NCBI GenBank assembly: GCA_024330215.1 | Contig: JANDLU010000023.1 | Location: forward strand, 1 to 43,469 | DNA from: Candidatus Gaiellasilicea maunaloa | GTDB taxonomy: Bacteria > Actinomycetota > Thermoleophilia > Gaiellales > Gaiellaceae | Direction: 5' to 3' | Length of the DNA stretch: 43,469 bases | Shown: positions 4,310-6,727 of the stretch, in pieces | How positions within the stretch are numbered: position 1 is the first letter of the stretch | Layout of the letters: the number at the start of each line of letters is the position of its first letter | Translations under genes and position numbers: made by a program | Notes under the pieces: model-generated | What the model was told of the DNA's origin: nothing | Database searches by the model: none | The model's input: the letters and a program-made list of their open reading frames with translations, nothing else

Positions 4310-4791
4310 TGGACCGGCGCGAGCGGGAACGGATCCTGCGACAGGGCGTCGTCCTGCCCGAGACGCCGCGGCGTCAGCGCGAGCTGGCGGCACTCGTCGA
4401 GGATCTGGTCGAGCATCCGCTGCAGAGTCGACCGCTGCGACAGCGGTATCGCAACTTCACGCCGGACGCGGGCTCGTACTTCGCCGCGCTCGGCGGACCG
4501 CTGCCATACATGGCGAGGCTCCGCGAGATCGAGGCGCTCGTCGCCGGGCATGAGCTCGCTCTCGCCGATCGCTACGCGACCGCCGACACAGCAGCCTGGC
4601 GAGAGGTGGCGGAGAGCTGGAGCTTCGGTGAGGTGAACGACCTGATCGACCGCCACAATCGGTGGTATCCGATCGAGGCACGGTTGCCGATGGATCCGCA
4701 CACGGGCGACTTCGTCCTCGTCAACGGCGAGCCCTACTGGAAGCGTCCGCTGGATGCACGCTGGGTGCTCGAGCGCTTCCCGGCTGCCTGA
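4309..4791 (+). CDS. Conserved hypothetical protein
   Basis: A 160-residue soluble protein with no domain I recognise. It is rich in charged helices (ERERILRQGVVLPETPRRQR at the N-terminus) and ends with a block PMDPHTGDFVLVNGEPYWKR that looks beta-rich. I chose GTG 4309 because it overlaps the TAG stop of the MFS gene by one base, a coupled arrangement. Its last 71 bases overlap antisense with the 3' end of the MFS gene at 4721-5899. The reading frame has normal codon bias, so I take it as real. Function unknown. Confidence 0.6.
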   Translation: MDRRERERILRQGVVLPETPRRQRELAALVEDLVEHPLQSRPLRQRYRNFTPDAGSYFAALGGPLPYMARLREIEALVAGHELALADRYATADTAAWREVAESWSFGEVNDLIDRHNRWYPIEARLPMDPHTGDFVLVNGEPYWKRPLDARWVLERFPAA

Positions 4792-5899
4792 ACGTCGCCG
4801 CGAGAGTCACCAGGCACAGTCCCGCCGCAAGCAGATAGGGGAGGGCGTCGCCGGCGGCCTCGGCGAGAGCGCCGCCTGCGATCGGCCCGGTCATGTTGCC
4901 GAGCGCCCAGGCCGTGTTCATGATCCCGAATCCGAGTCCCTGCGCGAGGCCGACCGACTCGGCGCGGTCGGAGACGAGCGCCATTCCGGGCGTGTAGAAG
5001 CCTCCGAACGAGATCGCCGCGAGCGCGACGAGCGCGACGACGAGCGCGGGACGGCTGGCGAACGCGAACGCTGCGGCGACGAGGACGGACGCTGCGAGCG
5101 CGAGCCGGATCGGAAGCAGGCGGCCGCGCCGGTCGGAGAAGCGTCCCAGGAGTGGGTTCGCCACTGTCTCCGCGAGCCCGGCGCCGAGAAAGACGAGGCC
5201 GATCGCGAACGCGCCGAAGCCGCCGTCGGCGAGCGTCAGCGGTACCAGCACCACCATCAGGCCGAACAGGAGCGCAGGCAGGGTGTTCAGCCAGAGTCCG
5301 CCGAGGAAGCGCCGGTCGTGCAGGGCAAGCAGAAGCGACGCGGGCTCGTGCGGGTCTGCGGCCGCCGCCGGTCGGGTCGCGGCGAATCCGGCGAACGCTA
5401 GTGCGATCGCACCGACGGCCCCGAAGGTGGCTCGGATGCTGACGGCGTCTGCAATCGCGCCGAACATCGGGCCGATGATCGCTCCGAACACAGCAGCGCC
5501 GAAGGCGATCCCGATCAGCTCGCCTCGGCGCGAGCGCGGTGCCGCGACGGTGAGCCACGCGAGCGCTCCTGCCCAGGTGGTCGTGCTCGAGAAGCCCTGG
5601 ACGAAGCGCGCGAGCGCGAGCGCCCAAGGGCCGGAGGCGAGCGAGAAACCGAAGCTTGCGAGCGCGAGCAGGACGAGGCCGAGGACGACGGCTCGCTTCG
5701 GGCCGAGCTTCATCGCGGCAATCCCGCCGGGGATCCCACCGAGGAGGGCGCCCGCACCGAACGCGCCGACGAGGAGCCCGGCACCTGCCTTCGAAAGCCC
5801 GAACTCGTTCGCGTAGCCGGGCACGAGCGGTGCGAGCGCACCGAAGAGCATCGCGTCGACGAAGACGATCGAGCTGACGAGCACGAGCAGCCGGCGCAT
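4721..5899 (-). CDS. Major facilitator superfamily transporter
   Basis: A 392-residue, 12-segment MFS protein. It opens with a hydrophobic helix containing LVLVSSIVFVDAM and has a motif A-like loop with GRFSDRRGR between segments 8 and 9. The fold resembles sugar or drug efflux carriers; the substrate is unknown. The C-terminal tail is Ser/Arg-rich and overlaps antisense with the hypothetical gene 4309-4791, so the two transcripts converge and overlap. Upstream, on the far side of the start, lies the ~830-bp intergenic region carrying the duplicated unknown element. Confidence 0.8.
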   Translation of the reverse strand: MRRLLVLVSSIVFVDAMLFGALAPLVPGYANEFGLSKAGAGLLVGAFGAGALLGGIPGGIAAMKLGPKRAVVLGLVLLALASFGFSLASGPWALALARFVQGFSSTTTWAGALAWLTVAAPRSRRGELIGIAFGAAVFGAIIGPMFGAIADAVSIRATFGAVGAIALAFAGFAATRPAAAADPHEPASLLLALHDRRFLGGLWLNTLPALLFGLMVVLVPLTLADGGFGAFAIGLVFLGAGLAETVANPLLGRFSDRRGRLLPIRLALAASVLVAAAFAFASRPALVVALVALAAISFGGFYTPGMALVSDRAESVGLAQGLGFGIMNTAWALGNMTGPIAGGALAEAAGDALPYLLAAGLCLVTLAATFRQPGSARAPSVHPADASSRARR

Positions 5900-5971: not shown

Positions 5972-6266
5972 TGAACCAAGCGAGCCGACCTGTGGCATTG
6001 AGCCCCGGCAGCGACCTCGCAGCTTCAGGGGGCTTGCGCCCTTAAGAAATTCAGCGAGCCGGGTGCGCTTTCGTCCGCCACTCCGACGAACTTTCGGCAT
6101 CAGCCTTGCGGCGTCCTCCTACGGCCTATCGGTGTGGACTCGACCTACTCGCGTCCCGTGCTCGCTGCAAGGGGGAAGCTAGAGCCGCGGCCGACGAGGG
6201 TCAAGGGTGCGAAAGGTGAAGAAGTCGCAAATTGCGATCTTTTCCTCAATAACACACGCATTTGCG
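5972..6266. repeat. Unknown ~295-bp non-coding element, copy 1
   Basis: First of two diverged tandem copies in the intergenic region 5900-6727, which holds no supported gene. Blocks shared in the same order with copy 2 include TGAACCAAGC, GAGCCCCGGC, GCAGCTTCAGGGG, TTCAGCGAGCCGG, TTTCGTCCGC, GACTCGACCTA, GTGCTCGCTGCAAG, CGCAAATTGCG, TTTTCCT and CGCATTTGC. An extra TGAACCAAGC lies at 5945. Near its end, TCGCAAATTGCGA (6225-6237) followed by TCTTTTCC resembles a weak terminator; CGCAAAT there could instead pair with ATTTGCG about 28 bases on. Blocks conserved between variable spacers suit a structured RNA or a mobile non-coding repeat better than a protein. I do not recognise it as tmRNA, RNase P RNA or a known riboswitch. 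Confidence 0.6.
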
Positions 6267-6292
6267 ATCCGCGCCTTTTACCAACACGGGAA

Positions 6293-6569
6293 TGAACCAA
6301 GCGGCTGACGTAGCGAGCGAGCCCCGGCGCCGACCCACGCAGCTTCAGGGGTCCACAAAAATAGATTCAGCGAGCCGGTGGCGGTTTCGTCCGCTCCTCC
6401 GACTGACGTTTCCGCTTCCGCGTACTCGCCTGCCGGTGGAGACTCGACCTAATCCCGCTCCGTGCTCGCTGCAAGCAGGAAACTAGGGATCCATTCGGTG
6501 TAGGTCAAGTGTCATCCGGCTCACTTCCCGCAAATTGCGGAGTTTTCCTTTCGCGCAGGTCGCATTTGC
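6293..6569. repeat. Unknown ~277-bp non-coding element, copy 2
   Basis: Second tandem copy, offset 321 bp from copy 1, with the same ordered blocks. The stretch between GCAGCTTCAGGGG and ATTCAGCGAGCCGG differs completely: A-rich here, but a GGGC-containing hairpin in copy 1. CCGCAAATTGCGG (6528-6540) followed by AGTTTTCCTTT is the counterpart of the hairpin plus T-run in copy 1. It lies ~160 bp upstream of the SDR gene. Confidence 0.6.
6528..6551 (+). terminator. Terminator-like hairpin with T-run in copy 2
   Basis: CCGCA/TGCGG arms around AAT, followed by AGTTTTCCTTT. The same arrangement occurs in copy 1 at 6225-6246. The short stem makes this a modest candidate. Confidence 0.35.
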
Positions 6570-6727
6570 CAACGATTGCGCATGCTCTAGAAAGGAGTTC
6601 GCCTGCTCGACCCGTGCCGAAGGCAGCTCGCGGCGAGATCGGAATCTATGCTCGCTCTGGGCGAGCGGCAAGGATCGCCGGCCAGGACGTTCGCAAAGAG
6701 CGGGCAAAGGACGAGAGGAGAGCACGA

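Follow-up and report, generated by a model that had tools for sequence, protein, structure and literature searches.

The window, as the whole stretch of 43,469 nucleotides analysed here is called, very probably holds a small RNA gene in two tandem copies, each transcribed independently, whose product would be a rod-shaped RNA that starts from its own promoter, ends in a T-run and acts in trans. The RNA is read right to left from the minus strand, opposite to the orientation first assumed. Sequence signals indicate an own promoter, an intrinsic terminator and no fixed leader role, and on these grounds the classification as an autonomous small-RNA gene appears close to certain. Each gene would yield an RNA of ~115-135 nt, folded end to end and closed at its tip by a GNRA or UNCG tetraloop. 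The Gaiellales, to which the window belongs, are common in soil, and very few of them have been cultured; a literature search on RNAs of this order found nothing. A multi-copy RNA gene that almost every sampled genome of one family carries, as do several related families, and that shows promoter, terminator and fold signals but is absent from Rfam, makes a good candidate for a regulator of house-keeping or stress functions in these organisms. The consensus, the coordinates (Table 1) and the model make the RNA gene directly testable, and the corrected strand matters in this respect, as readers would otherwise assay the plus strand.

Table 1. Predicted features of the small RNA array and its downstream neighbour in the window
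Feature	Position	Strand	Remark
MFS transporter gene	4721..5899	-	Pfam MFS_1 4.5e-51; downstream of the array
Small RNA gene, copy 1	6037..6169	-	RNA ~6169→6037; ends predicted to ±3 nt
Closing helix, 3' arm with T-run (GGCTCGCTGAATTTCTT), copy 1	6044..6062	-	predicted intrinsic terminator
Apical hairpin GCC-GCAA-GGC (GNRA tetraloop), copy 1	6103..6112	-	predicted fold
-10 element TAGCTT, copy 1	6176..6181	-	sequence signal
-35 element TTGACC, copy 1	6199..6204	-	17-nt spacer to -10
Palindrome TCGCAAATTGCGA upstream of copy 1 promoter	6225..6237	.	likely regulator site, centre about -62
Small RNA gene, copy 2	6354..6473	-	RNA ~6473→6354; ends inferred
Apical hairpin CGC-GGAA-GCG (GNRA tetraloop), copy 2	6413..6422	-	predicted fold
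-10 element TAGTTT, copy 2	6480..6485	-	sequence signal
-35 element TTGACC, copy 2	6503..6508	-	N17 to -10
Palindrome CCGCAAATTGCGG upstream of copy 2 promoter	6528..6540	.	sequence signal
Probable third-gene remnant: palindrome CGCTCTTTGCG, CTTGCC, TAGATT	6641..6701	-	RNA body lost or decayed

The preliminary description had placed in this region a tandem pair of diverged, non-coding units of ~280-295 bp, implicitly on the plus strand. The pair itself is borne out: the copies, located at ~5972-6275 and ~6290-6575, match each other in blastn with E=2.5e-22 and 72% identity, a likeness far above chance, and their repeat blocks occur in the same order at offsets of 303-320, with ungapped repeat families of 85 nt at 73%, 51 nt at 80% and 21 nt at 86%, plus others. 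The ending ascribed to both copies, CGCAAATTGCG with a T-run and CGCATTTGC, is present after each of them where it had been reported. The extent of the unit had to be revised, since the RNA accounts for ~115-135 nt of it and the remainder consists of promoter, palindrome and spacer; the boundaries change accordingly, and the transcribed parts would be ~6037-6169 and ~6354-6473 on the minus strand. The 3' blocks of the two copies (to 6237 and 6540) are the promoter and upstream palindrome of the minus-strand genes, and the leftmost 60-80 nt of each copy, for which conservation across the family was not found, lie outside the core. The R2 model matches copy 1 at 6045-6170 (minus strand, 100.5 bits) and copy 2 at 6361-6474 (minus strand, 107 bits). 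Copy 1 folds into a single end-to-end hairpin of -54.4 kcal/mol, and copy 2 repeats this architecture at -55.7 kcal/mol.

A full-length profile search found no third copy in the window. At the place expected for one, where only the promoter part is left, a promoter-region profile scores 6.5 bits, with E=0.46 for the window as a whole, and segment 6641-6701 is, judging by these signals, a probable remnant of a third array copy. The genome from which the window comes (3.85 Mb, 200 contigs) contains exactly three copies, the third being at C135:27597-27744 and adjoining uppP. A protein-coding reading is out, in agreement with the earlier statement that no plausible protein frame is present: the length of the rod differs among relatives, by 12-16 nt and in steps other than three, and every reading frame is closed in some member.

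The assignment of the strand follows from the wobble pairs. In the plus-strand reading, A·C cells are more numerous than G·U cells (93 to 51, 55 to 32 and 41 to 17), which is the opposite of the trace of a plus-strand RNA and therefore places the RNA on the minus strand; additional pairs that depend on G·U, such as 48-107 (GU 31, AU 12, GC 7 in alignment A6), hold on the minus strand only. The consensus fold energy is -88.8 kcal/mol on the minus strand versus -75.8 kcal/mol on the plus strand, and the mean fold z is -4.9 versus -3.2, respectively; single-sequence folds of the plus-strand copies have z near 0. According to predicted minimum-energy folds, tetraloops cap 119 of 126 minus-strand rods (GNRA in 105, UNCG in 14), and none of 101 plus-strand folds is capped in this way (11 of 101 in shuffles). 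A simple search for apical hairpins, which is noisy, detects GNRA or UNCG loops in 57 of 126. The plus-strand reading, in which CGCAAATTGCG and the T-run served as the terminator, was reversed by the wobble test.

In alignments of 90, 58 and 51 members the RNA forms a single long hairpin, with compensatory changes along its whole length. Of the alignments made, only A4 and A5 had been fitted to the model, not A2, A3 and A6 (the last a MAFFT alignment of 51 sequences in the minus sense), yet the structure itself was taken from the same family. In A6, 92.1% of the cells are paired and 25 of the 34 pairs have changed on both sides; double-sided changes occupy 216 cells, against 60.5±9.7 in shuffles, which ignore shared ancestry, and at most 65 in slid controls, which account for it. 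Both-sided changes affect 17 of 26 pairs in A3, with 148 cells against 48.5±4.8 shuffled and at most 42 in slid controls. A mostly independent set, drawn from other Gaiellales genera and families, gives 132 cells versus 50.9±5.2, and its helix bases have been swapped wholesale (A-U to C-G or U-A). When column pairs were scanned unguided, the strongest covarying pairs were those of the long hairpin. Covariation, which had been proposed as a check, is thus extensive in several alignments. Within the rod, the internal loop GAGUAGGUCGAA / GGACGAAAGC keeps near-invariant unpaired bases that remain constant while the surrounding helices change. This loop resembles loop E (AGUA opposite GAA, with an invariant bulged G), and GAA is found in 85 of 90 members, but the G of AGUA varies (G in 61, C in 17, U in 4, no match in 8), and the loop is therefore not filed as loop E (sarcin-ricin).

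A cmscan search of Rfam returned no family, only chance-level hits, for the window and for canonical, type B and distant members, and the element is, as originally stated, unmatched to known RNA families. Of the two original options, structured RNA or non-coding mobile repeat, the former is upheld by the covariation and this Rfam result, and the latter is set aside on account of the syntenic sites described below. 6S RNA (RF00013) does not match the element up to E=10 on either strand, and a 6S gene lies at another locus of the same genome (G000:C184:3379-3545, minus strand), where it scores 41.3 bits, just under the gathering score; identity with 6S RNA was rejected on these two counts. A separate 6S RNA gene occurs in 23 of 41 genomes (this one and 22 of 40 related ones), with scores over the cut-off in 6 of the 41. 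The genes for SRP RNA (RF00169) and RNase P RNA (RF00010) are on other contigs of the genome, and the element, which matches neither, was not assigned to them.

Across the family, the sequences flanking the rod carry the signals expected of a transcription unit. Among 130 members, the mean promoter score is 9.1 versus 6.4 in shuffles, and scores of at least 9 are reached by 84 members versus 0 in shuffles. The spacer between the -35 and -10 elements is 17 nt long in 100 of the 130, though its sequence varies. A separate sigma-70-type promoter is predicted for each copy on the minus strand. A strict generic consensus scan detected no promoter, because the -10 element, TAGNTT, is too far from TATAAT. 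In 84 of the 130 members, the palindrome CGCAAWTTGCG has its centre 61.5-64.5 nt upstream of the predicted start; such a position is typical of activators that contact the polymerase from upstream, and a regulator probably binds the palindrome ~62 nt ahead of the start. The RNA would begin at the closing helix and end in the T-run, which lies past this helix family-wide, with 6.3 T per 15 nt versus a background of 2.3.

Two further motifs accompany some of the copies. Ten of 101 members (for example L116, L102, L071, L089 and L064; also L170) have clusters of 2-5 DnaA-like boxes (TTATCCACA type) ahead of the promoter, against a background of 0.018 per 170 nt. Their interpretation as a replication origin was rejected, given that dnaA is on other contigs and, in the single-contig genome G019, more than 0.5 Mb off. 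The motif TGCTCT[AG] is found at 6579-6586 of the window and in 9 of 22 inter-copy spacers of arrays, where 0.24 would be expected; its reading as the promoter of the next copy was dropped once the strand had been corrected to minus.

The genes occupy three recurrent sites: between apt-C4-C9 and uppP/sigma-70, between a trmH-like gene and pheS/pheT, and, as arrays, beside an MFS gene. The window represents the array site. Its MFS protein is 57-69% identical to those adjoining the arrays of seven other loci (L061, L072, L077, L099, L104, L139 and L146), which makes it an orthologue of the MFS proteins at the arrays of other genera, and in L077, as in the window, the same SDR gene flanks the array opposite the MFS gene. 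Arrays comprise three copies in 5 loci and two in 12, mostly 220-330 nt apart, and the copies nearest to the MFS gene are often of a diverged type B with UUCG loops. At the main site, relatives (e.g., L062, L064 and L097) conserve a run of RsiG-like, FHA, apt and C4/C8/C9 genes before uppP; no Pfam family was matched by proteins C4, C8 and C9.

As regards distribution, matches came from 53 of 101 related genomes in a nucleotide search, and of the 92 stretches picked up by an exact-pattern scan of GTDB genomes, 85 have the element; the other 7 were discarded as chance matches in Alphaproteobacteria. The element-bearing records are titled Gaiella, Gaiellaceae, Thermoleophilia or Actinomycetota, apart from one contig labelled Burkholderiales. 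This record (L124, JAICUZ010000010.1), titled as a Burkholderiales MAG, carries the Gaiellales RNA pair together with its synteny and is probably mislabelled or mis-binned. The R2 model, whose E-values, as those of all the short-calibrated models, are rough, and which was run mostly on metagenome assemblies, detects the gene in 81 of 82 genomes of the family of the window (f1), the lone exception being 66% complete. In other families of the order it detects the gene in f2 (5 genomes), f4 (2) and f3 (1), and has no match in most f3 genomes and in one f4 genome, so that the term order-wide is valid for f1 and f2 and the presence is patchy beyond them. Among 396 genomes from the whole phylum, R2 matched none outside the four Gaiellales ones. 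At E≤0.001, the only match of R1 or R2 among the sampled genomes outside the order was a weak one of R1 (G122, from another family of the class, 29 bits), which did not recur among the R2 matches and was rejected as a carrier. Genomes hold from one to six copies, and plasmid and phage sequences gave no match to the element.

The orientation of the array, which in the window and in the seven other loci lies upstream of the MFS gene and reads toward it, would suit a cis-acting, riboswitch-like leader or attenuator of that gene. This is very improbable, since elsewhere the 3' neighbour is convergent, as in 40 of 70 loci, so that the RNA is not the leader of a fixed gene; moreover, the neighbours vary by site (uppP/apt, pheS/trmH or MFS), and each copy has its own predicted terminator, which would end it before the gene. 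A DNA-level element or non-coding mobile repeat can hardly be credited at all: the wobble asymmetry and the GNRA loops are signatures of RNA, the sites are syntenic among genera, and plasmid or phage copies were not found in the sequences searched, despite the tandem, multi-copy arrangement, the palindromes and the DnaA-like boxes at some copies that might suggest it.

The product of the small RNA gene would work in trans through its folded shape, and the conserved internal loop is most likely what it offers to a protein. Protein recognition is the likeliest mode of action, at slightly less than even odds, given the stable tetraloop and the near-invariant bases of the internal loop; the apical loop, as a stable tetraloop, is an unlikely site of base-pairing. 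Pairing of mRNAs with the internal loop or with single-stranded stretches, as in a base-pairing regulatory small RNA, would agree with the tandem, multi-copy genes that have promoters of their own and a presumed regulator site, an organisation common among regulators of this kind, and with the divergence of array copies into types A and B. This mode is nonetheless unlikely, as nearly all of the RNA is paired, up to the tetraloop seen in 119 of 126 rods, and the conserved unpaired bases lie inside the internal loop, constant while the flanking helices change. A functional analogue of 6S or Ms1, that is, a rod RNA that attaches to RNA polymerase and modulates transcription, also appears improbable. 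It would fit the length, the end-to-end rod, the strong house-keeping-type promoter and the near-universal presence, and Ms1 of other Actinobacteria is a rod-like RNA that binds core RNA polymerase (PMC9130861). Against it stand the conventional 6S genes found elsewhere in 23 of the 41 genomes, the failure of cmscan to match 6S, the consensus, with small internal loops and no large 6S-type central bubble, the restriction of matches among the 396 genomes to the four Gaiellales ones, and the neighbourhood, in that the HAD hydrolase accompanying Ms1 is not among the recurrent neighbours that were annotated. A wider proposal, which must be called doubtful, is that of an order-wide Gaiellales regulatory RNA that binds a central protein (RNA polymerase or an RNA-binding protein) by way of the conserved internal loop, with several specialised paralogues and a dedicated CGCAAWTTGCG regulator; if true, the RNA would join 6S as a further protein-binding RNA of the Gaiellales.

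Compared with known systems, the autonomous small RNA gene of the Gaiellales shares with Ms1 the character of a structured RNA gene widely spread in Actinobacteria. Ms1 is ~300 nt long in mycobacteria, is linked to a HAD-hydrolase gene and binds core RNA polymerase (PMC9130861, PMC4191392); neither this length nor this link was seen at the annotated Gaiellales loci, and the comparison with Ms1 consisted of the R2 search, which gave no match outside the Gaiellales. The likeness to 6S RNA (RF00013) lies in a rod-like hairpin of 100-200 nt, an own gene and wide distribution in the clade, and the difference in the separate 6S gene of the same genomes, the lack of a sequence or model match and the missing central bubble, which in 6S RNA is large and mimics an open promoter; 6S RNA also binds the RNA polymerase holoenzyme and serves as template for pRNA. 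Qrr, LhrC and OmrA/B are tandem, multi-copy bacterial small RNAs, and the present family resembles them in its several diverged copies, partly in tandem, each with a promoter and a terminator of its own; it has no known sequence relation to them, and in place of an exposed pairing region it shows a tetraloop-capped rod with a conserved internal loop.
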